DNA of 64,000 nucleotides, from contig NZ_JARXVM010000008.1 of the NCBI RefSeq assembly GCF_029892285.1, positions 62,001-126,000 on the forward strand, given 5' to 3'. Both the position numbers and the translations under genes were made by a program. This stretch comes from Rhizobium sp. SG_E_25_P2 (lineage in GTDB: Bacteria > Pseudomonadota > Alphaproteobacteria > Rhizobiales > Rhizobiaceae). The notes beneath the pieces were generated by a model. The model did no database searches. It worked only from the letters and a program-made list of their open reading frames with translations, and had not been told where the DNA came from. This document shows, in pieces, positions 8,467 through 50,289 of this stretch (position 1 is the stretch's first letter; each line of letters begins with the position of its first letter).

Positions 8467-10380
8467 TCAGAAGTCTTCCCACTCCTGCGGCTTCAAGGCG
8501 GCATTGCCCCGGACGGGGAGAGAAGGTTGGCGCCCCCGCGCCGGCGCTTCCGATCGGGGGCGCTGCACCGGCGCCTGAACCGCACGCGCAGTCGACTGAG
8601 CAGTTCCCGTCTTGAACGTCGAGAGAAGATCGAACAACCGGCGGCTTTCCTGCGCCAGGGTCGCGCCGGCAGCGTTCATCTCCTCCACCATAGCGGCGTT
8701 CTGCTGGGTCGCCTGATCCATATGGTTCACGGCGGTGTTGACCTCGGTGAGACCAGAGGATTGTTCCTGCGCGGCCTGCGCGATCGCAGCCATGTGCTCG
8801 TTGATCTCTTCCACGAGCGTCGCGATCGAACCAAGTCCTTCGCCGGTGTCGTTCACGAGCTTAACGCCCTCGCTAACGGCCGTTTCGGAATTGTTGATCA
8901 GGCTCTTGATCTCCTTGGCGGCGTTCGCTGAACGCTGCGCGAGTTCACGCACTTCCTGCGCTACGACAGCGAAACCCTTGCCGGCCTCGCCGGCGCGGGC
9001 AGCTTCGACACCGGCATTCAGAGCCAGAAGATTGGTCTGGAATGCGATTTCGTCAATCACGCCGATGATCTGGCTAATTTGAGTCGAGGCGTGCTCGATG
9101 CGCTCCATGGCGGAGACAGCGTTACTGACCACGACGCCAGCCTGTTGGGCATGTTCACGAGCCGTGCCAACCAACGTCCTCGCCAAACCAGAGCGGGTTG
9201 AGGTCGCCTTGACGTTCTGGGTGATTTCCGCCAGCGCAGCGGCTGTTTCTTCGAGGGAAGCCGCCTGCTGCTCGGTGCGACGCGAAAGATTGTCGGACGC
9301 CTGGGAGATTTCGCCGGAGCCGGTTGTCACACCATGCCCCACGTCGCCGACAGCAAGCATAGCGGACCGCAACTGATTGACGGAGCGGTTGAAGTCGCGC
9401 CGCAACGGTTCGAATTGCGGGGCGAATTCCTGGCCGATTTCACACATAAGGTCACAATCGGCGAGGCGGCGAAGCGCCGTGGCAAATGAGTCCGTCGCTT
9501 GCGCGACGCGACGTTCGGCGTCCTCCTCGGCGCGGCGCTGCATATCCAGGCGCTCCGCTTCGGCGCGTTGGCGCATGCCGTCGGCATTGGCTTCCATTTC
9601 ACGCTTGGCGATCGCAGAGTGCCGCATCACCTCGACCGCGCCGGCCATTTCACCCAACTCGTCCTTGCGGTCGGTGTCAGGCGCGGCGACATCGATCTTG
9701 CCTTCGGAAATGCCGAGCATGAAGGTGCTCAAACGTTTGATCGGAGCAGAAACGCCGCGATTGATCCACACCGCAAGCGCCACCATGATCACCACAGCGA
9801 TGGCGATAATTGCGATGGTAAGCACGTTCGACGTTTCGAACGCGCTCTGAGCGGCCCCGGCGGAAGCGGCCGCGCCTGCATCATTCAGCTTGATCAACGC
9901 GCCGAGCGCCACGAAAGAGTCGACCAGCGGCTGCCGCGCGGGCGCGATAGCCGCTACAGCCTTTTCCTTGTCACCAGCAGACGCAGCCTCAATGATGCGT
10001 TTTTGGTAGTCGAGATAAGTGGCCCATTTCTGCTCGAAAGTGGACCAAAGCCCCCTTTCGTTATCGTTGAGCAACGCATCTCTCATAGCCGCGTAGGACT
10101 GAGGGATCGACGCGTCCATTTCGACGAACTCATCGTCAAGTCCCTTGATTTCCGCCGGATCCACGGCAATCGCTTTTCGGATTGTCGTTGTATGGTAGCG
10201 GAGCAACGTGAATTGGATGGCGTCGAGCTTGGCCACGCGAGGCATCCACACCTGTCGAGTGTCGGATGCGGCGGAATAGACCGTCGAAATCTGATTATAG
10301 CTGATTATGCCGATAGACATGACGATCGCCAAAGCGGCAGCCGCCATAATGAGCAAACGTGTCGAGATGCGTAAATGCAT
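8467..10380 (-). CDS. Methyl-accepting chemotaxis protein
   Basis: This is a transmembrane chemoreceptor of 637 residues from the ATG at 10380. An earlier start would add 21 residues before the first membrane helix. Order: short cytoplasmic N-terminus, TM1 (about 8-30), a four-helix-bundle-like periplasmic domain, TM2 ([19 protein letters not shown]), HAMP, and a coiled-coil signalling domain whose hairpin tip contains [21 protein letters not shown]. The protein ends in EWEDF, which fits the xWxxF pentapeptide used to tether CheR/CheB in some receptors. No che genes are nearby, so it is an orphan receptor. The ligand is unknown. Confidence 0.93.
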
Positions 10381-10484
10381 AGCGCCCTTCCCGGAACAGG
10401 CAAAACAGTTACTGACCTCCGAAAGGTAATGACTATCCGTCAATTTTTACTAAATAAACAACTGTTAAAGGCGACCAGATCTGA

Positions 10485-11396
10485 TCAAGGCTGCGTCGTC
10501 GTCTCGCATGCGATTTCGGCGTCGAGCCACGCTTTGAAGGCCAGTAGACGGTCGCTCTCGCCGCGCTCCCGCCGGGTGACGAGCCAGTAGGACTGGTGGC
10601 CGGGAACCTCCACATCCATGATCGTCGTCAAAAGCCGTTGTTCCAGCTGTGGCGTGATCATGTGGCGATCGGCCACCGTCACGCCCATGCCGTTGACGGC
10701 CGCCTCTATGGCGAGATCGAGGAGATCGAATTCGAGGCCGCCGCGCGTGTCGACCTCCGCAAGCCCTGCCGCGTCCAGCCAGTGCCGCCAGGTGAGATAG
10801 CGCTGGTTGGACGAGGCCAACACATGCAGGAACGTGAAGCGGGAGAGATCGGCGCCGGTGATCGCGCTCGCCCCGTGCAGCAGTGACGGCGCGCAGACCG
10901 CCACATGACGTTCATTCATCAAATGGCTCACCTGCATCAGCGGCCATTCGCCATCGCCAAAGCGGATCGCGCAATCGAGCAGGCTGCGCTCGCCGAGATT
11001 GTCCTGAAGGTCGGTGCTGATGCTGATATCGACGTCGGGCATTGCGGCCCTGAGCGATGGCAATCGCGGCATAAGCCAGCGCCGCGCGAATGTCGGCGGC
11101 GCATTCAGCCGCAGCCTCGCGCCGCTGCTCTTTTCCATGATCGACCGAACGGTCAGCTCGACATTGTGCAGGGCGTCCTGAAGCGTGGCGTAGAGTTCCG
11201 CGCCCGATTCCGTCAGTTCGAGATCGTGGTGGCGGCGGATGAACAGCGCCTCGCCCAACTGTTCCTCGAGATTGCGCACCTGACGGCTGACCGCGCTCTG
11301 AGTCAGGTTCAGTCGTTCTGCGGCCCGGGTGAAGCTTCGCGTCTGGCCGACGACTTCGAAGATCTTCATGGCGGTCAGGGCAGGCAGTCGGCGCAT
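10485..11396 (-). CDS. LysR-family transcriptional regulator, GcvA-like
   Basis: The protein has an N-terminal winged helix-turn-helix (residues 1-60, with the LysR signature FTRAAERLNLTQSAVSRQVRNL) and a periplasmic-binding-protein-like effector domain. The opening MRRLPALTAMKIFE is typical of the GcvA-like branch. The ATG at 11396 has GGAG six bases upstream, whereas the ATG at 11411 has no Shine-Dalgarno sequence, so a length of 303 residues is preferred. No divergent target gene is adjacent. The ALDH-GMC operon with its T-N11-A repeat is the nearest plausible target, which is inference. Confidence 0.88.
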   Translation of the reverse strand: MRRLPALTAMKIFEVVGQTRSFTRAAERLNLTQSAVSRQVRNLEEQLGEALFIRRHHDLELTESGAELYATLQDALHNVELTVRSIMEKSSGARLRLNAPPTFARRWLMPRLPSLRAAMPDVDISISTDLQDNLGERSLLDCAIRFGDGEWPLMQVSHLMNERHVAVCAPSLLHGASAITGADLSRFTFLHVLASSNQRYLTWRHWLDAAGLAEVDTRGGLEFDLLDLAIEAAVNGMGVTVADRHMITPQLEQRLLTTIMDVEVPGHQSYWLVTRRERGESDRLLAFKAWLDAEIACETTTQP

Positions 11397-39609: not shown

Positions 39610-40629
39610 TCACCCGGCTGCGGCCAGTTCCGAGCCGACTCCCACCGCGGCGAAGGCGCGGGCGATCACCTCTGGGCCGGCCCCGGGCTTGACCGCGTCG
39701 GAAGACAAGATCTGACGGAAGCGGCGCGCCCCATCAATGCCGGAAAACAGGCCGATCATGTGGCGGGTGATATTGCCGAGCTTGCCGCCCTGGGCGAGAT
39801 GCGCCTCCGCATAGGCCATCATCGCGTCGCGAATGGCGATCCAGTCAATGGACGTCGCCGGTTCGCCATAGACGCGGGCGTCGACGTCAGCCATCAGCGC
39901 CATGTCGTGATAGGCGGCGCGCCCGAGCATGACGCCATCGACATGGGCGAGATGCGCCTCGGCCTGATCCAGCGTCTGCACGCCGCCATTGATGCCGATG
40001 AAAACATCCGGATAGTTTTGCTTGAGCCGGTACACCCTGTCATAGTCCAGCGGCGGAATATCGCGGTTTTCGCGTGGACTGAGCCCCTGCAGCCAGGCTT
40101 TGCGGGCATGCACCCACAGCGCGTCCGCGCCGGCGGCCAGCGCGGCTTTTGCAAGCATGTCGAGCGCCTGCTCGGGATCCTGATCGTCAACCCCGATCCG
40201 GCATTTCACCGTGACCGGAATATCCACAACCGCTTTCATAGCCGCAACGCCTGCGGCCACCACGTCGGGCGTGCGCATCAGGCAGGCGCCGAAGGTTCCG
40301 GACTGCACACGGTCGGAGGGGCAGCCGACATTGAGATTGATCTCGTCATAGCCCCAGTCGGCGCCGATGCGCGCCGCCTCCGAGAGCTTGGCGGCATCGG
40401 ACCCGCCGAGCTGGAGCGCAACCGGATGCTCCGATGGAGCAAATCCCAGAAGCCTGTCGCGCTTGCCATGGATCGCGGCATCCGCCACGACCATTTCTGT
40501 ATAGAGCAGCGCTCGCTTGGAGAGCAGCCGCAGCAGGTAGCGGCAATGCCGATCCGTCCAGTCGAGCATCGGCGCCACGGCGAAAACGGGAGCTTTGAAA
40601 TAATTAGCATTTTGTTTTTTTACAGGCAC
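39610..40629 (-). CDS. dusA: tRNA-dihydrouridine(20/20a) synthase
   Basis: The 339-residue FMN enzyme reduces uridines 20/20a in the tRNA D-loop. The TIM-barrel opening APMLDWTDRHCRYLLR and the catalytic cysteine Cys103 in NVGCPSDRV mark DusA. The start is GTG at 40629. Codons 18-27 carry one copy of a 29-bp repeat whose other copy is at 49520-49548. The first 17 codons plus flank are unusually AT-rich (19 of 51 bases G or C). This suggests the 5' end was supplied by an integrated element while the reading frame was kept. The gene should be functional if the element-derived start is expressed. Confidence 0.95.
   Translation of the reverse strand: MPVKKQNANYFKAPVFAVAPMLDWTDRHCRYLLRLLSKRALLYTEMVVADAAIHGKRDRLLGFAPSEHPVALQLGGSDAAKLSEAARIGADWGYDEINLNVGCPSDRVQSGTFGACLMRTPDVVAAGVAAMKAVVDIPVTVKCRIGVDDQDPEQALDMLAKAALAAGADALWVHARKAWLQGLSPRENRDIPPLDYDRVYRLKQNYPDVFIGINGGVQTLDQAEAHLAHVDGVMLGRAAYHDMALMADVDARVYGEPATSIDWIAIRDAMMAYAEAHLAQGGKLGNITRHMIGLFSGIDGARRFRQILSSDAVKPGAGPEVIARAFAAVGVGSELAAAG
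40550..40578 (+). repeat. Left attachment repeat inside dusA
   Basis: It starts CGATCCGTCCAGTCGAGCAT and encodes, on the minus strand, codons 18-27 of DusA (VAPMLDWTDR). It matches 49520-49548 at 27 of 29 positions in the same orientation, and homology stops sharply on the dusA side. Confidence 0.8.
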
Positions 40630-40686
40630 TTACGGCACTTTCTTCATTGTCTCGTTTGCGCCCGTTCTGCGTTATTTCCGCCGATG

Positions 40687-40737
40687 TTGGCACTAAATTT
40701 GGTACAATGCACCAATTATCGTTTTTCACGCACCAAC
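40687..40737. repeat. Cluster of TTGGTGC-like repeats between attachment site and integrase remnant
   Basis: Four related short motifs occur in 51 bp: GTTGGCAC (40687), TTGGTAC (40699), GCACCAA (40709) and GCACCAAC (40730). The last two are inverted relative to the first two. Such clusters near a phage-type attachment site can be arm sites for an integrase or excisionase. They could equally be an operator for dusA or the integrase gene. Confidence 0.35.
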
Positions 40738-40749
40738 TGAAGCACGGTT

Positions 40750-40853
40750 ATGGGCACGATCACAGCTCGCAAGCGCAAGGACGGCGGTATCGGCTACATG
40801 GCGCGAGTGCGGGATGGGGTGAAGCCTATCACGAGACCGACACCTTTAACAGA
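40750..40853 (+). pseudogene. Site-specific integrase, N-terminal remnant with frameshift
   Basis: An ATG at 40750 opens with MGTITARKRKDGGIGYMARV, the usual arm-binding N-terminus of tyrosine integrases. After residue 25 (DGVK) the frame is lost. Shifting one base, from 40824, restores integrase-like sequence AYHETDTFNR, which fits the loss of one G in a GTGAAGGCC context. The sequence then ends at IS21-derived DNA, so the catalytic domain is missing altogether. Its position directly upstream of dusA is where dusA-type elements keep their integrase. Confidence 0.72.
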
Positions 40854-40987
40854 CCGTTGGTTTCCACGCGGAACTTAGCCGGTTTTTCTACCGAGAAGTG
40901 AGGCGTTTCTGAGTATGATTTTCTGATCAGGGTTTGGTCAATGTGTTGGCTTTTTCTCCTCTTGTTTGTGCTGTGGCAGCCGAACTG

Positions 40988-41206
40988 GTTTTTGGAGCGG
41001 AAGCTGTGGTTTCCTGTTTCCAGGATTTGGCGACGGTGGGTCAGATGGTCGCGCAGAGCCGTCGTCATTTCGGCGTCGCCAAAGACGGTGTCCTATTCGC
41101 CGAAGCTGAGATTGGTCGCGATGGCGACGCTGGTACGCTCATAGAGCTTGCTCAGCAGGTGGAAGGGTAATGCGACGCCGGAGGCGCTGAACGGAAAGTG
41201 TCCGAG
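40988..41206 (-). pseudogene. IS21-family istB remnant
   Basis: On the minus strand this encodes a C-terminal part of the IstB transposition ATPase: LGHFPFSASGVAL, FHLLSKLYERTSVAIATNLS, then VFGDAEMTTALRDHLTHRR and ILETGNHSFRSKN. A TAG stop (41093-41095) replaces the tryptophan codon of the usual GEW. The 5' half of istB and all of istA are absent. It is debris of an IS21 insertion that probably destroyed the integrase. Confidence 0.78.
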
Positions 41207-41438
41207 TACTTGGCCCAACGCGGCCCCGCATTTTCGAAAACCGACAAAATTGACGCAAAATTCTGATTTTGCTAAATTTTCAGAAGCTCCTCAACGATCC
41301 AGAATACGGAACGAGAGAGGAATGTCCAAGTCATTCCGCCCGCCTGTCACGGACGATGTTCGGCCCGTTCGACTAGCCGAATGGGGAGGCGTTGCCCCCT
41401 GCCTGCCGCAGCAGGGCAACGCCTCCGGGCTGGCCGCC
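41207..41438. other. Gap between IS remnant and nitrilase gene
   Basis: No gene is supported here. The stretch holds an AT-rich perfect inverted repeat (GCAAAAT at 41255-41261, ATTTTGC at 41266-41272) and, at its end, the hairpin that probably closes the nitrilase operon. Confidence 0.4.
41385..41426 (-). terminator. Long hairpin after the nitrilase gene
   Basis: GGAGGCGTTGCCC (41385-41397) and GGGCAACGCCTCC (41414-41426) form a perfect 13-bp stem with a 16-nt loop, 13 bp after the nitrilase stop. No T run follows on the minus strand, so it may act as an mRNA-stabilising 3' hairpin or a weak terminator for the seven-gene operon. Confidence 0.55.
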
Positions 41439-42452
41439 TCAGGCTTCTTCTGCTTCCAGCGGGATGACGTCAAAAGACGGCTTTTCGGGCACGTTGCGTT
41501 CTTCCATGACCTGGCGCTTTTCGCGGTTGATCACCAGCTTGACGGCATCGGCACGAGAGTAGTGACCGGCCGGATCGGCGGCCGCCTTGGCGATGGCGAT
41601 CATTGCCGGATCGAGATCGGCATAGAGAATGCCTTCCTGATCTTCCGGGATCGGCTCGCAGAGGGCGCGGCCGTCAGGTCCGAAGATCTGCGCAAAACCG
41701 CCACCCGGCTTGGATGTCTGCGGGTTGAGGAACATCGCCTTCTGTGGCGTGTCTGCCATGATGTCGAACATCTCCTGGCTGACGATGGCGCAGGGCGCGA
41801 GCACATAGGCGCTGCCCTCGACGGCATACTGGCGGCTCGCACCCAGATTGACTTCCGGCCCGAGAGCATAGGCCATTTCACGGTAGACGCAGAAGCTCGG
41901 CCAGCCGGCGACATGAACTTCTTCATGCTGCGCATACATCGCCATCTTCACCAGCGGCTGCATGTGCTCCCAGCAGTTGAGAGCGCCCAGGCGACCAAAG
42001 GCCGATTCGACAACCTTGATATCGGAACCGTCGCCGTCTCCGTAAATCGTCCGCTCGACATGCGTCGGCTTCAGCTTGCGGCGGTTGAGCAGGATCTCGC
42101 CCTCCTCCCCGATGATGACCTGCGACATGTAGCGGCTGCCGCCATCGCGCTCTGAATAGCCCATGACGAGGGTCACCTCGTGTTTTGCCGCGATCTTCTG
42201 CAGACGCTTCATTTCCGGCGAATGTAGTTCCATGCTGTTTTCATGGTAGGTCGGAATGAACTTCATGCCCTCCGCTGGAGCGCCCAGCCAGATGAACCAG
42301 GGATAACCGGGCAGCCAGGTCTCCGGAAACGCCACCAGCTTGGCGCCGTTTGATGCGGCTTCGGCGACGATCTTTTCCGCCTTGGTGATGGACGCGTCGA
42401 GGTTGAGGAATACGGGGGCCGCCTGAACTGCAGCTGCTTTGATTGGCTTCAT
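41439..42452 (-). CDS. Nitrilase
   Basis: The 337-residue enzyme hydrolyses a nitrile directly to a carboxylic acid and ammonia. The catalytic triad is visible: Glu44 ([12 protein letters not shown]), Lys126 ([12 protein letters not shown]) and Cys160 (GALNCWEHM). The CWEH motif and the HVAGWPSF block separate true nitrilases from other members of the carbon-nitrogen hydrolase superfamily. The chain preference (aryl, arylaceto or aliphatic) cannot be read. AAGGAAC lies seven bases before the ATG. It is the last gene of the operon, 35 bp after the aldoxime dehydratase gene, so its substrate is probably the nitrile made by that enzyme. Confidence 0.94.
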
Positions 42453-42487
42453 GGTGAAGTTCCTTCTTGCTTGGGGGGGGTGGGAAG

Positions 42488-43495
42488 TTACTGGAACAGG
42501 CCCGAAATGCCCGTGCCGGGATGGCAGTTGATGTATTCGAAATGCTGCTCGCCGCTTGGCAGTACGACCACCTCGTGCCAGAGCCGCAGGCTGATCTTGT
42601 TGTCGCGCGCCTTCAGCAGCTTGAAGAAGCTGCCGAAGATCGAGAGGTGGGTTGGATGGCTCTTGGCCCAGTCCTCAAGGTGCTTCATGCTGACAAAGAG
42701 ACAGTTGCCGAAGGTGCGGGCAAGCGGCGTGCCGTCGGAGGTGATTTCAACGGCATAGCGGGAGGCGGCACAGCCGATCTCCAGACCTTGCTCCGCGAGA
42801 AAGGTCATGCCGGCGGCCAGGTTAGGCTCGACGACCTCGCTATAGACTGCGCGCTCTTCGGCGCTCGCATCCGTAAGGTCCTGGCCCGATCGGATGATGC
42901 AGAGGTTCAGCGGGGCGTTCACGACGATACGTGTCCCCGGCCCGGTCGAACGGCGCGCCAAAGTGTCTGTGATCGGGGTGTCGAGCCAGTCGTCCTTGGA
43001 CAGGGCAATCCGATCGCGCATTCCACCCCAGTAATTGTGTTCGCGAACCGGACCCTTCAGGTCGACACCATGGGCATGGCCATCAGGCGCCATCGACGAA
43101 TGTAGGCTCTCCATACGTTGCGCCGGAAGCGTCAGGCGCTCCTGCCAATAGCCGCAGGCATCGGAGAGCCGGGCGTCGCTCTTCCACCAGGCGTCAAAAC
43201 CGGACGCTTGGGCCCAGGCATCGAAATGGGTTGGGCCGTTGAAGTAGGCGATGGCAAAGGCATCCGTGGGAGCAGCGCCCATGCTTGATATCGCGAAGTC
43301 GACATGGAAGGGGCCGCCTTCCGTCGTGAGGAAGGCCTGGATGCGGGAGAGTCCCTCCTGCGCTAAAGACCGGTCACTATTCTGCGCACTGAGATAGGCG
43401 ATGGTAGTCTTGTCCGCTCTTGGCATGGCAGACCATGCGGGCACGGGAGGTTCCCAGTTTTCTGGCATGGCCGAGACGGGTTTTTCAGGTTTCAT
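42488..43495 (-). CDS. oxd: Haem-dependent aldoxime dehydratase
   Basis: The 335-residue protein belongs to the aldoxime dehydratase family (phenylacetaldoxime dehydratase type), b-type haem enzymes that dehydrate R-CH=N-OH to the nitrile. Family blocks are visible: [42 protein letters not shown] and the C-terminal [22 protein letters not shown] and [11 protein letters not shown]. His283 (THLSIF) is the likely proximal haem ligand and His307 (LWHEV) the likely distal acid-base residue; this spacing resembles OxdB-like enzymes. GGAG precedes the start. It sits directly before a nitrilase, the known aldoxime-nitrile pathway partner. Confidence 0.9.
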
Positions 43496-43521
43496 GGCAG
43501 TTCTCCGAATGGATCAGGTCT

Positions 43522-44502
43522 TCAGACGATGGGACGGGGACGGTGTTGAACGGGCAGGAGATCGAACCGGAGCCAGCTGCGAGCGATGCCCCAGAGCCCC
43601 TGGGGGCGATAGATCGTGATGCCGATGGCCAGCAGGCCAGAGAGGATGAAGTAGCCACTGCCCAATCCCGAAAGGTATTCGCGCAACACGAAGTAGACGA
43701 TCGCGCCGATGATCGGGCCTTCGATGGAGCCCAGCCCACCCATGATGACGATGAAGATCACCATGGCGGTCCAGTTCATGGAAAAGGCGCTGGCGGGCGA
43801 AATCTGCACGCTTGAAATGTAATAGGCGGCGCCGGCGCAGCCTGTTGTGAAGGCGGCGATCGCCAGCGTGGCATAACGGACCCGTGCAACATTCACGCCC
43901 ATAGCCTGGGCAGCATGCTCGCTGTCACGCACGGCCCGCAGCGCCAACCCGAAGCGGGAGCGCATCAGCACCAAACAGACAATCACCGACACCATCAGGA
44001 CTGCTGCTGCTGCATAAAAATTGAACGTCATCCGCCACGTACGATCGACCAGCCGCATGACGCTGAGGTTCATTCCCCCGCCGCCGCCCAGCGACGGCGA
44101 CAGCAGCACGGCCAGGCGCGCAATTTCCGCCAGAACCCAGGAGCCGATGGCAAGCTGCGGTCCATTCAACCTGAACAGAAGCGGTGCGACGATGAGAGCC
44201 ACCAGGGCTGCGGCGACACCCCCGACTGCGATGAGCGCATAAGGCGGGACGCCAAGCGCGTTGGCCAGCAGATAGAGCACATAGCCACCAGTTCCGATGA
44301 ACAGCGGCACGCCGATGAAGACGATGCCCGCAAAACCAGCCAGCAAGTTCCACATGATCGCGATGGCGAGCACCGCGCAGAACTCGGTGGCGAGCGACAA
44401 ACCCGCTCTATCAGCAAGCGCCGGCAGGGCGAGAAGGACGACGGCAAGCGCCAGAGTAAAGGTCATGGTTCTGGGCAGGGATGATATCGAGACGCCGCGC
44501 AT
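43522..44502 (-). CDS. Branched-chain-type ABC transporter permease (LivM-like)
   Basis: The 326-residue inner-membrane permease has about nine helices and the LivM-type C-terminal block, including FSMNWTAMVIFIVIMGGLGSIEGPIIGAIVY. It pairs with the LivH-like permease encoded just upstream; the two genes share one base (TAATG on the coding strand) and GAGGG precedes the start. The ATG at 44502 is used because earlier in-frame sequence lies within the preceding gene. It is part of a five-gene HAAT-type importer with probable aldoxime, nitrile or related nitrogen substrate, which is inferred from context. Confidence 0.9.
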   Translation of the reverse strand: MRGVSISSLPRTMTFTLALAVVLLALPALADRAGLSLATEFCAVLAIAIMWNLLAGFAGIVFIGVPLFIGTGGYVLYLLANALGVPPYALIAVGGVAAALVALIVAPLLFRLNGPQLAIGSWVLAEIARLAVLLSPSLGGGGGMNLSVMRLVDRTWRMTFNFYAAAAVLMVSVIVCLVLMRSRFGLALRAVRDSEHAAQAMGVNVARVRYATLAIAAFTTGCAGAAYYISSVQISPASAFSMNWTAMVIFIVIMGGLGSIEGPIIGAIVYFVLREYLSGLGSGYFILSGLLAIGITIYRPQGLWGIARSWLRFDLLPVQHRPRPIV

Positions 44503-45359
44503 TATTTTGCCCTCTTTGCAATCAGGCCCTGCGGGCGGATCAGAAGGATAATCAGGAAGACGATATGACCGGTAATCGGTCCATAGACGGGCGAGATGCT
44601 CTGGCCGAGCGATTGCGCCAGACCGAGAACGATCCCGCCGACAAACGTGCCCCAAATCGAGCCGAGTCCGCCGAGAACGACTGCTTCGAAGGCAAACAGC
44701 ATGCGCTCCGGTCCCGCAGCGGGGGAAAAGGTCGCGCGCATGCCGAGAAAGATGGCCGCAACGGCAGACATTGCGAGCGACAACCCCAGCGCCAGCGCAA
44801 AGATGTGATGGATCTCGATACCCATCAGCCTTGCAGTGCGTCCGTCATCCGACGTGGCGCGCAATGCACGGCCGAAATTGGTGCCCTTGAAAGACAAAGA
44901 GACGATCGCAAAGACGGCAACGGCGAGTAGAAGGAATACCATCGGCATCACGCCGACAGAGACGCCGCCGATGTCGATCGAGAGCGGGCCGATGGCGCCT
45001 GGGTCAAGGCTGCGAGTATCGGCGCTGAACATCTCCTGAAGTGCGTTCTGCAGGATGACAGATAGTCCGAAGGTGACGAGCAGGGGCGACAACTCGCTTT
45101 GACCCATGGTGCGGTTGAGGACAAACCTCTGAAGCACATAGCCAACAGCGAACATCAGCAACGCCACGAACGGGAGCACGAGGATTGGATGCAGTCCGGT
45201 CAAGTCCACCATGAAGAAGGCCAGGTAGGCAGACAGTACGATCAGATCGCCATGAGCGAGGTTGATCTGCCGCATGAGGCCGAAGGTGACGGCGAGGCCG
45301 ATGCCGAAAAGCGCGTAGAGTGAGCCGGTGAAGACACCGTTAATCATCAGTTCAAGCAT
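44502..45359 (-). CDS. Branched-chain-type ABC transporter permease (LivH-like)
   Basis: The 285-residue permease begins MLELMINGVFTGSLYALFGIGLAVTFG, the standard LivH opening, and has about eight helices. It contains the EAA-like cytoplasmic loop (FGRALRATSDDGRTARLMGI) and the FEAVVLGGLGSIWGTFVGG block. The ATG at 45359 is preferred because GGAGAG precedes it and sequence further upstream belongs to the ATPase gene, which it overlaps by 8 bp. Confidence 0.9.
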   Translation of the reverse strand: MLELMINGVFTGSLYALFGIGLAVTFGLMRQINLAHGDLIVLSAYLAFFMVDLTGLHPILVLPFVALLMFAVGYVLQRFVLNRTMGQSELSPLLVTFGLSVILQNALQEMFSADTRSLDPGAIGPLSIDIGGVSVGVMPMVFLLLAVAVFAIVSLSFKGTNFGRALRATSDDGRTARLMGIEIHHIFALALGLSLAMSAVAAIFLGMRATFSPAAGPERMLFAFEAVVLGGLGSIWGTFVGGIVLGLAQSLGQSISPVYGPITGHIVFLIILLIRPQGLIAKRAK

Positions 45360-46059
45360 GGTGCTTCTCTCCGAAATAGGCCGCCGAGATTGCGGCGAGA
45401 TCAGCACCCCGCGAGACACCCGAGAGCGCGATCTCACCGTGGCGCATGCAGGCAAATTGGTCGCTTTCTGTCAGCGCGCGGGCAATGTCCTGCTCGACGA
45501 TGACCATGGAGACGCCTTCCTCGCGCACCTTGCGCAACCCGGCATAGACCGTGTCGACCGCCGAAGGAGAGAGCCCGAGCGAGAGTTCGTCGCAGAGCAG
45601 CAGAATGGGATTGGCCATCAGGGCGCGCCCGATGGCAACGAGTTGCTGCTGCCCTCCAGACAGGGCCGGCGACGGTCGGTTCCTTAAGGGTTCAAGCGTC
45701 GGAAACAGTTCATAAATGCGGTCGAGCTGCCAGGGACCGGGTCGCCCGGCATAGGCCCCGGTCATGAGGTTCTCTTCCACGGATAGGCTGGGGAAAAGCT
45801 TGCGCCCCTCCGGCACCATGGCGATCCCCTGCCGGACGAGCTGGCGCGCAGAGAGACCGGAGAGTGACCGGCGCTGCAGTTGCACGTCGCCTTGGGCGGC
45901 AGGGAGAAGACCGGTGAGGATGCTGAACAGCGTTGTCTTGCCGGCCCCATTGGCCCCGACCAGGGCCAGGGTCTCGCCTTCGCCCAGGTCAAGGTCGACC
46001 CCGAAGAGGACCTTCAGAGAGCCATAGTTCGCCTGCAGGTTACGGACAGAGAGGACCAT
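45352..46059 (-). CDS. ABC transporter ATPase (LivF-like)
   Basis: The 235-residue nucleotide-binding subunit has Walker A GANGAGKTT, Q-loop region VPEGRKLFPSLSVEENL, signature ALSGGQQQLVAIGRAL and Walker B ILLLCDELSLGLSP. The VPEGR Q-loop marks the LivF group. In Walker B the usual Asp-Glu pair is present as DE. It overlaps the LivG-like gene by 20 bp and the LivH-like gene by 8 bp, showing tight coupling. The second start (46059) matches the family N-terminus. Confidence 0.9.
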   Translation of the reverse strand: MVLSVRNLQANYGSLKVLFGVDLDLGEGETLALVGANGAGKTTLFSILTGLLPAAQGDVQLQRRSLSGLSARQLVRQGIAMVPEGRKLFPSLSVEENLMTGAYAGRPGPWQLDRIYELFPTLEPLRNRPSPALSGGQQQLVAIGRALMANPILLLCDELSLGLSPSAVDTVYAGLRKVREEGVSMVIVEQDIARALTESDQFACMRHGEIALSGVSRGADLAAISAAYFGEKHHA

Positions 46060-46825
46060 CGATCTCCGGCTCCATTCCAAGGTAGAGTTGACGGACGGTG
46101 GGCGTGGCCATGGTCTGCCCAGGCTCGCCTTGGGCCAGGATCCTGCCTTCGCCCAGCACGATCAGACTGCGGGCCGTCGAGGTCAGAACGTGAACGAGAT
46201 GTTCGATCCAGATCACCGTGACACCGCTCTTGTTGATCTCGGCAACGGTCGCTGCAATCTCGTGCGCCTCATCGTCCGTCAGACCCCCGGCGATTTCGTC
46301 GAGCAGCAGAAGTTTCGGACGCGTCGCCAGAGCGCGGGCCAGTTCCAACCGCTTGCGGTCGAGGAGCGGCAGGTTTCCCGCCAGCATGTCGGCCTTGTTG
46401 GCAAAGCCGGTCTGCTTCAGCACCTGCAACACATACTGCTCCGCCGCCCGTGCGCCCAGACCTGCTGCGAAGCGCGCACCGACCAGCAGGTTTTCATAGA
46501 CGGACATACGCTGAAAGGACTGCGGCACCTGGAAAGTCCTGCCAACCCCCTTGCAGGCCCGTTGTGCTGCACTCAGGCGCGTGACGTCTTCGCCGTCAAC
46601 GAGGACGGATCCGGCATCAGGACGAAGCTGGCCGGAGACGACGCCGAACAGCGTCGTCTTGCCCGAGCCGTTCGGGCCGATGACGCCCAGAAGCTCTCCT
46701 TTCGGCACCGCGAACTCGACACCGGAGAGGACACGCGGCCCTCCCCCGTAGGATTTCTCGATGCCGACAACAGCGAGAACAGGCGGCTGCACGGCGCCAA
46801 CCGTTTGTTCCTGCACTAGGTTCAT
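46040..46825 (-). CDS. ABC transporter ATPase (LivG-like)
   Basis: The 261-residue ATPase has Walker A GPNGSGKTT, the LivG-type Q-loop GVGRTFQVPQSFQRMSVYENLLVG, a signature region NLPLLDRKRLELARAL and Walker B LLLLDEIAGGLTDDE. The classical LSGGQ is replaced by NLPLLDRKR, a divergence often seen in LivG proteins. Its start overlaps the stop of the binding-protein gene by four bases (ATGA). It forms the ATPase heterodimer of the importer with the LivF-like subunit. Confidence 0.9.
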   Translation of the reverse strand: MNLVQEQTVGAVQPPVLAVVGIEKSYGGGPRVLSGVEFAVPKGELLGVIGPNGSGKTTLFGVVSGQLRPDAGSVLVDGEDVTRLSAAQRACKGVGRTFQVPQSFQRMSVYENLLVGARFAAGLGARAAEQYVLQVLKQTGFANKADMLAGNLPLLDRKRLELARALATRPKLLLLDEIAGGLTDDEAHEIAATVAEINKSGVTVIWIEHLVHVLTSTARSLIVLGEGRILAQGEPGQTMATPTVRQLYLGMEPEIDGPLCP

Positions 46826-48123
46826 TTGCCCAGCACCACGCTGAACGGACGATCCACCGGGACTGTCGGCATGTTTTTGTTGTAGGTGACGGCGAGCTCG
46901 AAATCGCCGTTGTCGGCCACATCCCACTGGCCGCCGGCAATAGCCATCTTGGCAACGTTCCTGATCGGGCTAGAGGCCCAGTCCAGCTTTCCGACAATCG
47001 TGTCGAGCGACATCGCCGAGATCGCCGCCTGTACAGACGCCGGATCGGTCGGATCTTCGGCCGTCCTCAATGCAGCAACGCCCGTTTCAAACAGCGCGTG
47101 GATGACGCCGATCGGCTGAGTCCAGCGCTTGCCCGTATCCTGCTGATAGGCGGAAGCAAGCTCCGCTGCGGACTGACCGGTAATCGAAGACTGAAAGGGA
47201 TACTTCGGCGTCCACCAGATCTCAGTCGACATGTTGTTCGCGGACGGTCCAAGCGCCTGAATGCCGGCCGGAAAGAGCAGCGCCTTTGCGACGGTTGCAA
47301 CTTTCGGCTTGAACCCGAGCTGCTGGGCCTGGCGCCAGAACACGACCCAGTCCGGTGGATCGAAGAGACCGGTAATGATCTCGCACCCCGCATCGCGATA
47401 GGCCGCGATCTGGCGCGAGAAATCGTTCGCGCCCGGCTCGAACAGCCCGACATCGACTGCCTCGTAGCCCGACGCTTTCAGCGCCGCCGGAAAGCCCAGT
47501 GCAGCATCGGCAAAAGCCTGACCGGGAATGTCATTGGTAAAGCAGGTCGCGACCTTCCGGTTAGTCTCTATTCCGGACCACATGCCGATATAGGTCGACA
47601 TGATGTCTTCCATGCCCCAAAAGAAGTGGTTGGAGAACTCGAAGCCAACATCCGGCGCCCCGCCGAGCGGGAACATCCAGGCTTGCCACGGCGTGTTCGT
47701 GGTGATCGAGGGAATGCCGGCCAGTTCGCACTGCGCCGAGACATTGCCCACGGTGACGGCGCCCTGCGCAAGGACCAGATTTACCGCGTCGGCATTGATC
47801 AGCTTCTGAACGCCGCTGGTGGCCCGATCCGGGTTCGATTGATCGTCGACATCGACGAACTCGATCTCATAGGTCTTGCCCTTGTTGACGATGCCACCCC
47901 TCAAGGCCTCTCTCAACTGCTTGAGCAGGAAGCCATCCGCCTCGGCGAAGGGGGCGAAATTGCCGGTGCGCGGGCTGAGATAGCCGATCTTCAGCCTTGA
48001 GGTAGAGGCGATGGCCGGGGTCGGAAACAGGTTGGGCACGGTCGCCGCCGCAGCACCGACAATGGCGCCGCCGATCAGCTGCCTGCGATTGAGGAGAAGG
48101 CCGGATCTGTCTGTCACTTTCAT
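46822..48123 (-). CDS. ABC transporter substrate-binding protein (amino-acid/amide type)
   Basis: The 433-residue periplasmic binding protein has a Tat-type signal (LNRRQLIGGAIVGAAAAT, cleavage near AIA-ST) and the Peripla_BP_6 fold: LKIGYLSPRTGNFAPFAEAD, LVLAQGAVTVGNVSAQCELAGIP and GLFEPGANDFSRQIAAYRDAGCEI. It is the first gene of the operon, with GGGAG before the ATG. The group includes binding proteins for short amides and urea as well as branched-chain amino acids. Its fixed place upstream of oxd and nitrilase suggests it binds the pathway substrate, which is inference. Confidence 0.9.
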   Translation of the reverse strand: MKVTDRSGLLLNRRQLIGGAIVGAAAATVPNLFPTPAIASTSRLKIGYLSPRTGNFAPFAEADGFLLKQLREALRGGIVNKGKTYEIEFVDVDDQSNPDRATSGVQKLINADAVNLVLAQGAVTVGNVSAQCELAGIPSITTNTPWQAWMFPLGGAPDVGFEFSNHFFWGMEDIMSTYIGMWSGIETNRKVATCFTNDIPGQAFADAALGFPAALKASGYEAVDVGLFEPGANDFSRQIAAYRDAGCEIITGLFDPPDWVVFWRQAQQLGFKPKVATVAKALLFPAGIQALGPSANNMSTEIWWTPKYPFQSSITGQSAAELASAYQQDTGKRWTQPIGVIHALFETGVAALRTAEDPTDPASVQAAISAMSLDTIVGKLDWASSPIRNVAKMAIAGGQWDVADNGDFELAVTYNKNMPTVPVDRPFSVVLGK

Positions 48124-48204
48124 GGTGAGCTCCCAGTTGCATGAAGGCTCTCACCGGTCGCTCCGGTGTCGCAGCCTTCTAAATGTTGTTAGTTCCCTTG
48201 CCGC

Positions 48205-48266
48205 TTTTGCGGTCTGAATTGCGCTCAGGTTACCCGCGCCCAAATTTTGCGCACTGTTGACAGCGC
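48205..48266. promoter_or_regulatory. Divergent regulatory region of the aldoxime-nitrile operon
   Basis: The 247-bp gap between the divergent operon and regulator genes holds two direct copies of TTTTGCG exactly 40 bp apart (48205 and 48245). It also holds an imperfect dyad at 48249-48266 (GCGCACTGTTGACAGCGC). AraC-type activators bind direct repeats spaced by whole helical turns, so this is a candidate activator region. The call is positional. Confidence 0.35.
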
Positions 48267-48370
48267 CAACAAAACGGGCTTCTAGTGCCAGAACGGCATC
48301 CGGAAGCGCCTGCTCCACGCCCGGGCCTCAAGCATTCTCACTCGTCGTCAGCGATAATCCGGAGGGTCAG

Positions 48371-49285
48371 ATGACGCAGCTCGATCCGAAATCGTTCGAG
48401 CACTGGCAGGAAAGGTTGTGGTCAACCTATGTGCGGCTGGAAAGCCAGACGGACGATGCGTCATTCTTTGGGCATGTGCGGGAAGCGCTTCCGAACTCGA
48501 ACGCCCTGTCCTTCGTCCATTCGACGCGCCAGATAACCGAACGAACGAATGCCAATATCCGGAGCGACCCACAGGAAGTGGTAATCTTTGCCATCCAGGC
48601 ATCGGGTTATGGCTTTGTCGAGCAGGCCGGTCGACAGGCACGGTTGGAAAAGGGCGACTTCACGATCTACGAGACCACCCGGCCCTATCGACTTTTGTTC
48701 GACACGCCGTTTGACCAGCTGATTTTTCGCATGCCGCGCCATTTGCTGGAAAGGCGCCTTCCCAATCTGTCGTATCAGACCGCGCGCCGCTTCCACGGCC
48801 AGAAAGGGGCTGTCGCCCTCGCTGCCGGTTTTGTGTTCCAACTGGCCAAGAATGCGGAATCGCTTGGTACAGGCGGTCTGGAGACCTTCACCAGCTCCGC
48901 CGCCGACCTGATCGCCAATGCCATACAGTTCGAGACGTCAGGCGTGGATGACGCCGACCTGCTACGCTTCGAACGCCTGCAGGCCCGGATCCTGCGCTAT
49001 ATCCGAAGCTCCATTCCCGACTATAAGGAACTGGCTGAAATGGAGGGCATGTCGCTCAGGACCCTGCACCGGCTGTTTCAGATCCATGGCATGACACCGG
49101 GCAAGTGGATCCTTGATCAGAGACTGGACGGCGTAGCCGACGATCTGCGGGCAGTCGCGCTGAAGTCGCGTTCGATCACGGAGATTGCCTTTTCCTGGGG
49201 TTTCAACGATCTCTCAAGCTTCAACCGGGCATTCAAGACCAAATTCGGCCTGAGCCCACGGGCACTGCGTTCACAGGCTTTTTGA
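48371..49285 (+). CDS. AraC/XylS-family regulator of the aldoxime-nitrile operon
   Basis: The 304-residue protein has an N-terminal ligand-sensing domain of the AraC-binding-like (NitR/XylS) type, with LEKGDFTIYETTRPYRLLF, and a C-terminal double helix-turn-helix (about 205-300). The latter contains LAEMEGMSLRTLHRLFQIHGMTPGKW and ITEIAFSWGFNDLSSFNRAFKTKFGLSPRAL. It is divergent from the operon. NitR, which activates nitrilase in Rhodococcus, and regulators next to oxd genes are of this family. GGAGGG is five bases before the ATG at 48371. It likely senses an aldoxime or nitrile and activates the operon. Confidence 0.9.
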   Translation: MTQLDPKSFEHWQERLWSTYVRLESQTDDASFFGHVREALPNSNALSFVHSTRQITERTNANIRSDPQEVVIFAIQASGYGFVEQAGRQARLEKGDFTIYETTRPYRLLFDTPFDQLIFRMPRHLLERRLPNLSYQTARRFHGQKGAVALAAGFVFQLAKNAESLGTGGLETFTSSAADLIANAIQFETSGVDDADLLRFERLQARILRYIRSSIPDYKELAEMEGMSLRTLHRLFQIHGMTPGKWILDQRLDGVADDLRAVALKSRSITEIAFSWGFNDLSSFNRAFKTKFGLSPRALRSQAF

Positions 49286-49519
49286 GCCCCCGCATGGCCG
49301 GTCACAGTATCATCAGCGTGCGGTTTGCGCGCGACCCGCCAACACTCGAAGAGAGCGTTGTCACTCGAAGTTTTGCGCCTGATATGCGCCCCACGCTGAT
49401 CAGCGGAAGGTCCCAAAAGCCTCAACTGGCTTTCCACGATTCGTTATCAGATTAAAAAACCTGATACTTGGGACATACCTCTTCGCACATCATATTGTTA
49501 TATATAAAGAAAATTATAA
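49286..49519. other. Non-coding right end of the island
   Basis: No gene is supported. The AT-rich end contains nested dyads: GTCCCAA (49410-49416) with TTGGGAC (49468-49474) enclosing TATCAG (49445-49450) with CTGATA (49461-49466). The last 40 bases before the repeat are strongly AT-rich. These could be recombination sites or transcript hairpins. Confidence 0.4.
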
Positions 49520-49548
49520 CGATCCGTCCAGCCGAGCATCGGCGCGAC
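49520..49548 (+). repeat. Right attachment repeat of the island
   Basis: It starts CGATCCGTCCAGCCGAGCAT and matches the dusA copy at 40550-40578 in 27 of 29 positions. It is not inside a gene here, as expected for the displaced 5' end of the original dusA. Confidence 0.78.
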
Positions 49549-49599: not shown

Positions 49600-50289
49600 T
49601 TAGTGAACCGCAGCCGGCCCGCCGCTTTTCAACAGCGGAATATTCGGCAGCGTATGGCCAAGCACCTGATCCGCGCCTTCATAGATCATGCGGATGGCGA
49701 CATAGAAGATCACCAGCAGACCGACCCAGGCGATCCAGCGGAAGCGGTGCAGCAGCTTGGCGATGGCGGCGGAGGCGGCGCCCATCAGCACCACGGACAG
49801 ACCGAGACCGAAAATCAGCGCGGTCATGTGGTCGCGGGCGGCGCCGGCGACGGCGAGCACATTGTCGAGCGACATCGACACGTCGGCGACGATGATCTGG
49901 AACACCGCGTCGCGCAACGACTTGCGCGGCTTGCCGCCCACCACGCCATCGGCGTTCTGGTCGCTGTCCGTCAACGCCTCTTCGGCGTTGACCACCTCTT
50001 CTTCCTTGACCGTGAGTTCGCGATACATCTTCCAGCTCACCCACAACAGCAGAATGCCGCCAATCAGGATGAGGCCGATGATCTGCAGGAGCCAGGTCGT
50101 CGCCAGGGCGAAGACGATGCGGAGCACCGTGGCGGCGAGAATGCCGATCAGGATCGCTTTCTTGCGCAGATCGGGCGCGAGCCCGGCCGCTGCCATGCCG
50201 ATGACAATGGCGTTGTCCGCAGCAAGAACGAGGTCGATCATCACGACCTGGGCGAAGGCGGCGAATGCCGCATAGTCGATGCCAAACAT
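49600..50289 (-). CDS. TerC-family integral membrane protein
   Basis: The 229-residue protein has seven predicted helices and the two acidic membrane motifs of TerC/YjbE-type proteins (MIDLVLAADNAIVIGMA and DVSMSLDNVLAVAGAARDH). A charged cytoplasmic loop sits between helices three and four. The family exports or handles Mn2+ and other metals, in part during co-translational metallation. GGAG precedes the start at 50289. It borders the right end of the genomic island and is chromosomal, not cargo. Confidence 0.9.
   Translation of the reverse strand: MFGIDYAAFAAFAQVVMIDLVLAADNAIVIGMAAAGLAPDLRKKAILIGILAATVLRIVFALATTWLLQIIGLILIGGILLLWVSWKMYRELTVKEEEVVNAEEALTDSDQNADGVVGGKPRKSLRDAVFQIIVADVSMSLDNVLAVAGAARDHMTALIFGLGLSVVLMGAASAAIAKLLHRFRWIAWVGLLVIFYVAIRMIYEGADQVLGHTLPNIPLLKSGGPAAVH

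Follow-up and report, generated by a model that had tools for sequence, protein, structure and literature searches.

A probable aldoxime import-and-degradation operon on a genomic island of Rhizobium sp. SG_E_25_P2, and the recurrence of Liv-type importers beside aldoxime dehydratase genes

A 64,000-nt window of Rhizobium sp. SG_E_25_P2 (contig NZ_JARXVM010000008.1; all coordinates for this strain are those of the window) carries, between 41439 and 49285, the five genes of a Liv-type ATP-binding cassette (ABC) importer, a haem aldoxime dehydratase gene (oxd), a nitrilase gene (nit) and a divergent AraC/XylS-type regulator gene. We propose that they form a horizontally acquired operon by which an aldoxime is imported and degraded, a reading that we consider probable. 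The enzymatic pathway is a known one; its association with an importer recurs at other oxd loci, and is apparently unreported.

An open-reading-frame check, together with Pfam and NCBIfam profile scans, found all eight genes, with open frames, where the first-pass annotation of the window had placed them. On the minus strand, from 48123 to 41439, the order is binding protein, ATPase, ATPase, permease, permease, oxd, nit. Within the importer, successive reading frames share 4, 20, 8 and 1 bases; oxd and nit follow after gaps of 26 and 35 bases, respectively. Because the genes overlap or stand within 35 bases of each other, the seven co-directional genes likely form one transcript. Profiles and junctions agree with the single minus-strand operon, with overlapping starts through its transporter genes, that had been proposed.

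The product of oxd (42488..43495) matches the PF13816 profile end to end (positions 1-310 of 310, 248.3 bits, cut-off 25) and has solved relatives in 7f2y, 3a15 and 3w08. Its motifs at residues 279-284 and 322-329 (INCHPGTG) align with the solved dehydratases 7f2y and 3a15; the histidines concerned we take to be the proximal and the distal one. The score with the OxdA equivalog model NF050090 is below cut-off (241.3 of 600 bits). By family, 42488-43495 thus encodes an aldoxime dehydratase, as the first-pass annotation had it, and conversion of an aldoxime into a nitrile is predicted. The nit product (41439..42452) belongs to the CN_hydrolase family (PF00795, 177.7 bits), with a score below the cut-off of TIGR04048 (229.6 of 502.6 bits). 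Its best solved relative is 6zby, NitA (394.9 bits), presumably the arylacetonitrilase of Pseudomonas fluorescens EBC191. Nitrilase motifs, LNCWEH among them, are intact, with the Glu, Lys and Cys that we assume to be catalytic. The intact nitrilase triad and both dehydratase histidines, reported earlier, hold on this alignment with solved relatives, the roles of the residues being presumed.

The importer has the make-up of the Liv-type (HAAT) family. It comprises a periplasmic binding protein (46822..48123; PF13458 Peripla_BP_6, 123.7 bits), two ATPases (PF00005) in the LivG (46040..46825) and LivF (45352..46059) positions, and two permeases (PF02653 BPD_transp_2) in the LivH (44502..45359) and LivM (43522..44502) positions, all on the minus strand. 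The best NCBIfam models were UrtD, LptB and LivG for the first ATPase, UrtE and LivF for the second; like all the other displayed models for Liv (branched-chain amino acid) or Urt (urea) importers proper, they stayed below cut-off. The binding protein scored 19.2 of 477 bits, and no NCBIfam urea model matched at E 0.001; the profile search places it in the Liv-type family but in none of the curated Liv or Urt subfamilies displayed. A twin arginine at residues 13-14 is invariant across 28 aligned sequences, from which export by the twin-arginine translocation (Tat) route is predicted, as had been proposed, although the NCBIfam scan (E 0.001) gave no match to a Tat-signal model.

The AraC/XylS-type regulator (48371..49285, plus strand; PF12833 and PF14525) is divergent from the operon, as first annotated. 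Its likely start is the ATG at 48371, rather than that of the longest frame at 48257, since the frame of Rhizobium sp. FY34 opens at the matching ATG. FeaR is the nearest NCBIfam model (NF007243); as its cut-off of 199 bits is not reached (155.9 bits), the protein is a relative of FeaR only. Known RNA families gave no match at gathering thresholds.

Clusters in which oxd adjoins a nitrilase gene and a gene for an AraC-type regulator, NitR, are known from Bacillus sp. OxB-1 and Bradyrhizobium, according to PMC8955678, and the same trio recurs at many of the oxd loci that we gathered. The aldoxime-nitrile pathway with, at times, such a regulator nearby is thus indeed the established arrangement that the first-pass annotation took it to be. 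The window differs from the NitR clusters by the five-gene importer between regulator and oxd; in the main text of that article the word "transporter" does not occur. The nearest relative of the window trio, in Rhizobium sp. FY34 (L038, oxd at 10001-11008), has a regulator 85%, an Oxd 78% and a nitrilase 94% identical to those of the window, with no importer between its genes, and its genome holds no close homologue of the binding protein (best 24-35% identity). The FY34 spacer and the regulator-side spacer of the window share an element (score 74, against 41 for the highest of 200 shuffles), and the ∼39 bases directly upstream of oxd are also conserved. The core of this operator- or promoter-like element, picked by eye inside the local alignment with the FY34 oxd-araC spacer, is at 48247..48290. 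As FY34 shares both the regulator-side element and the oxd leader, the window importer sits between a conserved operator-like element and oxd. On these comparisons, the importer is an addition to the known regulator-oxd-nit trio. Because the five nearest other Oxd rows are also uncoupled (in one of them, L119, a Liv-type permease is found at a distance of 8.1 kb), it is simpler to assume that the importer was gained in the line of the window; the alternative is a loss in FY34. We also observed that, between these two strains, Oxd diverges more than the nitrilase, with a ratio of nonsynonymous to synonymous substitution rates (dN/dS) of 0.133 versus 0.036; it looks as if the specificity of Oxd had shifted.

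The association was then surveyed over 64 oxd loci: the window, 8 loci from one search, 34 from further genomes, and 21 of the 34 plasmid records in which Oxd was matched. The other 13 plasmid records were left out, as were weak or partial PF13816 matches in G286, G465, G531, G597, G730, G811, G830, G1086 and G1093. Some contigs are short or stop close to oxd (L039, L042, L045, L097, L099, L142), and any importer past their ends would be missed. A locus was scored as coupled when a Liv-type run with a binding protein and both permeases had its nearest gene at most 3 kb from oxd. Besides the window, 8 of 63 loci were coupled (L099, L120, L160, L162, L164, L168, L176, L180), which rules out that the coupling is unique to the window, where the first-pass annotation had taken the fused importer to be the unusual part. 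At six of them (L099, L160, L162, L168, L176, L180) oxd directly adjoins the run on the same strand; at L164 one amidase gene lies between the two, and at L120 a nitrilase-type gene, divergent from oxd, opens the run. Not scored as coupled were L143, whose importer is 4.1 kb off on the opposite strand, L119 (8.1 kb), and L098, L103, L161 and L163, where a binding-protein-like hit stands alone. With 13-32 family matches per genome in three genomes, a contiguous same-strand importer is expected at 0.0008-0.0016 per locus. Against this rough binomial chance, which assumes independent loci and an unbiased sample, direct contiguity gave p≤1.1×10−9 (6 of 63 loci), or p≤5.7×10−8 when other Oxd clusters at 60% identity were counted (4 of 23).

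By sequence, the coupled importers fall into five groups: the window; G066; G293 with Bradyrhizobium (57-59% identity within the group); A. tumefaciens with Ochrobactrum quorumnocens (51%); and Aminobacter. Binding proteins of different groups are 22-29% identical (31% for one pair), which rules out a single orthologous family. On the Oxd tree (63 rows, the short L171 being absent), the importer label needs 6 changes, all of them forced by starred branches. The locus of Bradyrhizobium barranii pCC829_2 (L176) is like the window in that a single run unites oxd and a nitrilase-type gene with genes for a binding protein, two permeases and two ATPases; it differs in gene order, and its binding protein and Oxd are only 23-24% and 32% identical to those of the window.

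Other genes were seen near oxd. A PF13557 (MetA-pathway) protein is encoded by or near it in Erwinia (L166, 8008-8883), Pantoea (L172, 7417-8283) and a Rhizobium plasmid (L163, 9995-10900), in place of an importer; L160 has both. This protein is possibly another uptake partner. A methyl-accepting chemotaxis protein gene is found near oxd and importer on an Aminobacter plasmid (L162, 11475-13622) and a Bradyrhizobium plasmid (L168, 9216-10898), where chemotaxis to the substrate is possible.

The whole cassette sits in the dusA integration site. Two 29-bp direct repeats, identical at 27 positions, bound it: the left one (40550..40578) lies within the present 5′ part of dusA (39610-40629; DusA model 503.8 bits, cut-off 269), and the right one (49520..49548) corresponds to the displaced original 5′ part. 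The first gene past the right repeat encodes a YjbE-family membrane protein (49600-50289; 204.3 bits, cut-off 134.8). Both repeats align to a single place in the congener G163 (L124, 8858-8886), where the site is uninterrupted; in G163 as in G084, where the site was judged by gene spacing, the matched parts of dusA and of the YjbE-family gene are 39 bases apart. Next to the left repeat, a probable remnant of an integrase N-terminus was found by tblastn against phages (matched part 40750..40812, plus strand; the frame stops at ∼40875). Its best phage matches are annotated as integrase, the match to Burkholderia phage DC1 being weak (76% over 21 aa, E 0.008), and Pfam, PHROGs and plasmids gave none. 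It is followed by an IS21 istB remnant (40856..41207; PF01695, 41.9 bits), 82-85% identical in DNA to plasmid stretches among the matches listed, several of which are annotated as IS21-like istB. The only intact genes recognised within the island are the eight described. In PMC4482086, dusA-specific islands are reported to insert in the 5′ part of dusA, to be flanked by imperfect direct repeats and to supply the 5′ end of the gene, with sizes of 4.8 to 185 kb. The window island, of ∼9 kb, fits these in its insertion point, its imperfect repeats and its island-supplied 5′ end; it differs in that the integrase is seen only as a short probable remnant and that the cargo is an aldoxime operon. Insertion in the 5′ part together with semiconserved direct repeats, the mark of dusA islands, is thus found here, as judged from the repeats themselves and not from the letters of the published 21-bp consensus. 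Among nine genomes of the genus, five of them with a completeness of 90% or more and a contamination of 5% or less, the window's own is the one with an Oxd match. Judging by repeats and insertion site, we conclude that 40550-49548 is a horizontally acquired island in the dusA integration site.

The importer by itself has many relatives. Homologues of the binding protein occur in 134 of 199 family genomes (E≤0.001), many of them distant, the best being 49% identical. No closer orthologue was found among 394 family genomes, none of at least 60% identity among 241 plasmid records, and a near-match DNA search of plasmids returned no relatives. The window's own genome has six more homologues, at 37-44% identity (contigs C3, C4, C9 and C25; L090-L095). 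Homologous modules, with binding proteins 42-49% identical, are common in the family without oxd or nit. We surveyed the context of the 20 best homologue loci of the 199-genome search; close homologues that appeared only in the 394-genome search (e.g. G583, G1438, G1403) lie outside this sample. The full order binding protein-ATPase-ATPase-permease-permease is kept in 17 of the 20, and none of the fetched stretches holds oxd or nit. An aromatic gene lies within the fetched stretch at five of them: the closest homologue, L070, is accompanied by a gentisate 1,2-dioxygenase (574.8 bits, cut-off 442.1), and L072, L080, L086 and L088 by a gene from the sequence cluster to which a flavin adenine dinucleotide (FAD) ring hydroxylase belongs (the cluster member scanned was that of L092). 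L092 itself, a paralogue locus of the window's genome, has this FAD ring hydroxylase and a catechol-type dioxygenase. On an Agrobacterium leguminum plasmid the homologue stands with a cupin, fumarylacetoacetate hydrolase, maiA and benzaldehyde dehydrogenase, on a Martelella plasmid with an intradiol dioxygenase, and in Aminobacter MSH1 it adjoins a cytochrome P450. The best solved chains for the 28-member binding-protein profile are 4q6w (title part "3-Hydroxy Be", E 5×10−16) and 4ey3 (titled as a p-hydroxybenzoic acid complex, E 4×10−14), both aromatic-acid complexes by title.

The outcome of the co-occurrence survey that had been suggested is divided: other oxd loci are coupled, and homologues of the window importer are commonly found without oxd or nit. 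The latter had been named as an outcome that would speak against the proposal, and it is partly what we see, some kin standing beside aromatic catabolism. The claim that the importer is dedicated to the pathway holds in part: non-orthologous Liv-type importers adjoin oxd elsewhere, but homologous modules being common without oxd or nit, dedication is visible in position only and not in family.

Several observations weigh against an operon for import and degradation of an aldoxime. The pathway does not require import, as 55 of 63 oxd loci have no such run within 3 kb. The excess over chance is weaker at that distance (8 of 63, p from 4×10−5 to 5×10−3), and the sample was non-random, against the assumption behind the chance figures. 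On the Oxd tree, each of the six changes could be either a gain or a loss; the importer label clusters there beyond chance (a count as low came from 3 of 500 shuffles), and the position of long branches, including L162 and L164, is unsure. In the A. tumefaciens/Ochrobactrum group the binding proteins are similar to those for urea (357.7 and 360.7 bits, cut-off 494.8), so that amides or urea may be the cargo of some coupled importers. Most kin of the window importer adjoin genes without clear pathway (short-chain dehydrogenase/reductase, cyclase-family, IclR-type, 3-hydroxyacyl-CoA dehydrogenase). Leucine-binding proteins come close behind among the solved relatives of the profile and, by fold alone, the urea-binding UrtA ranks first for the predicted model of the window binding protein (mean predicted local distance difference test score, pLDDT, 87.4). 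Finally, this protein is a lone long branch (1.39) and, of 131 conserved columns, differs from the consensus in 31 (the median row does so in 6.5, and four other rows in more than 31), which makes transfer of a ligand from its relatives weak. Such departures suit a changed ligand and prove none.

What the importer carries can be read in several ways. As some members of the rhizobial subfamily adjoin aromatic catabolism, our best guess is an aromatic ligand, for example of the arylacetaldoxime type, and next the nitrile of the pathway; an aromatic aldoxime or nitrile would be the most likely cargo. The same neighbours (gentisate, benzaldehyde and ring-hydroxylating genes), like the aromatic-acid complexes, would also fit a module for an aromatic acid, aldehyde or alcohol that co-occurs with aldoximes, importer and pathway being separate under a common promoter. 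We find this rather unlikely, since five non-orthologous importer groups stand by oxd, and the recognised intact genes of the island include none for the breakdown of an aromatic ring. Distinctly less probable is a general nitrogen-scavenging unit, in which the imported compound is the nitrile or the amide of the pathway, or a nitrogen source similar to urea. The fold ranking of UrtA agrees with it, and some of the coupled importers are both similar to urea-binding proteins and accompanied by an amidase, one coupled importer by an amidase and a nitrile hydratase; the window binding protein, however, is only 23% identical to that of A. tumefaciens, matches no urea model at E 0.001, and has no amidase in its operon. 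That importer and enzymes are functionally unrelated and came together by chance appears very improbable: the island is patchy, with its integrase and IS21 remnants, and homologous importers are frequent in the family, but the genes overlap, share an operator-like element, and the coupling is repeated elsewhere.

Under the reading that we favour, an import-and-degrade operon for an aldoxime, we infer an inducer, a ligand, a direction of transport, a fate of the product and a benefit as follows. The regulator would sense an aldoxime or a derivative and, acting through the conserved element (∼48247-48290), switch on the seven-gene operon divergent from it. The binding protein would capture the compound in the periplasm, and the ABC importer would carry it into the cell, where dehydration by the haem enzyme would yield the nitrile, which the nitrilase would turn into an acid and ammonia. 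The benefit may be nitrogen, together with detoxification of a plant defence chemical. PaaA and PaaC had no match in the genome, which argues against mineralisation of phenylacetate by the usual paa route and makes nitrogen gain or detoxification likelier than growth on phenylacetate as carbon. Production of auxin from indoleacetaldoxime, raised at first pass, is possible. An importer of comparable kind is CouPSTU of Rhodopseudomonas palustris, an ABC importer for phenylpropenoids; from its description in PMC3610893, it is like the window in having a LivK-family binding protein and importer genes by catabolic genes, and differs in that its aromatic ligands are phenylpropenoids.

No report of importer-oxd coupling was found in the open-access literature searched, subscription papers being outside that search, and the word "transport" does not occur in a review of aldoxime dehydratases (PMC11568032). 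Gene identities and order, the shared element, the island and the repeated coupling can all be read in the sequences. A wider reading, which we put forward tentatively and hold slightly less probable than its contrary, is that binding-protein-dependent import of aldoximes or nitriles is a real, overlooked step of the pathway, arisen about five times by recruitment of non-orthologous Liv-type importers. If so, few proteins would have been recognised as aldoxime-binding before that of the window. To our knowledge, the natural role of bacterial aldoxime dehydratases is poorly known; a binding protein encoded in the same operon offers a direct probe, as knowing its ligand would identify the natural substrate, both in the window and at the other coupled loci. 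It would further suggest that bacteria living with plants take up defence aldoximes of the plant even when these are scarce, beyond detoxifying what leaks in, and that this trait moves on islands and plasmids.

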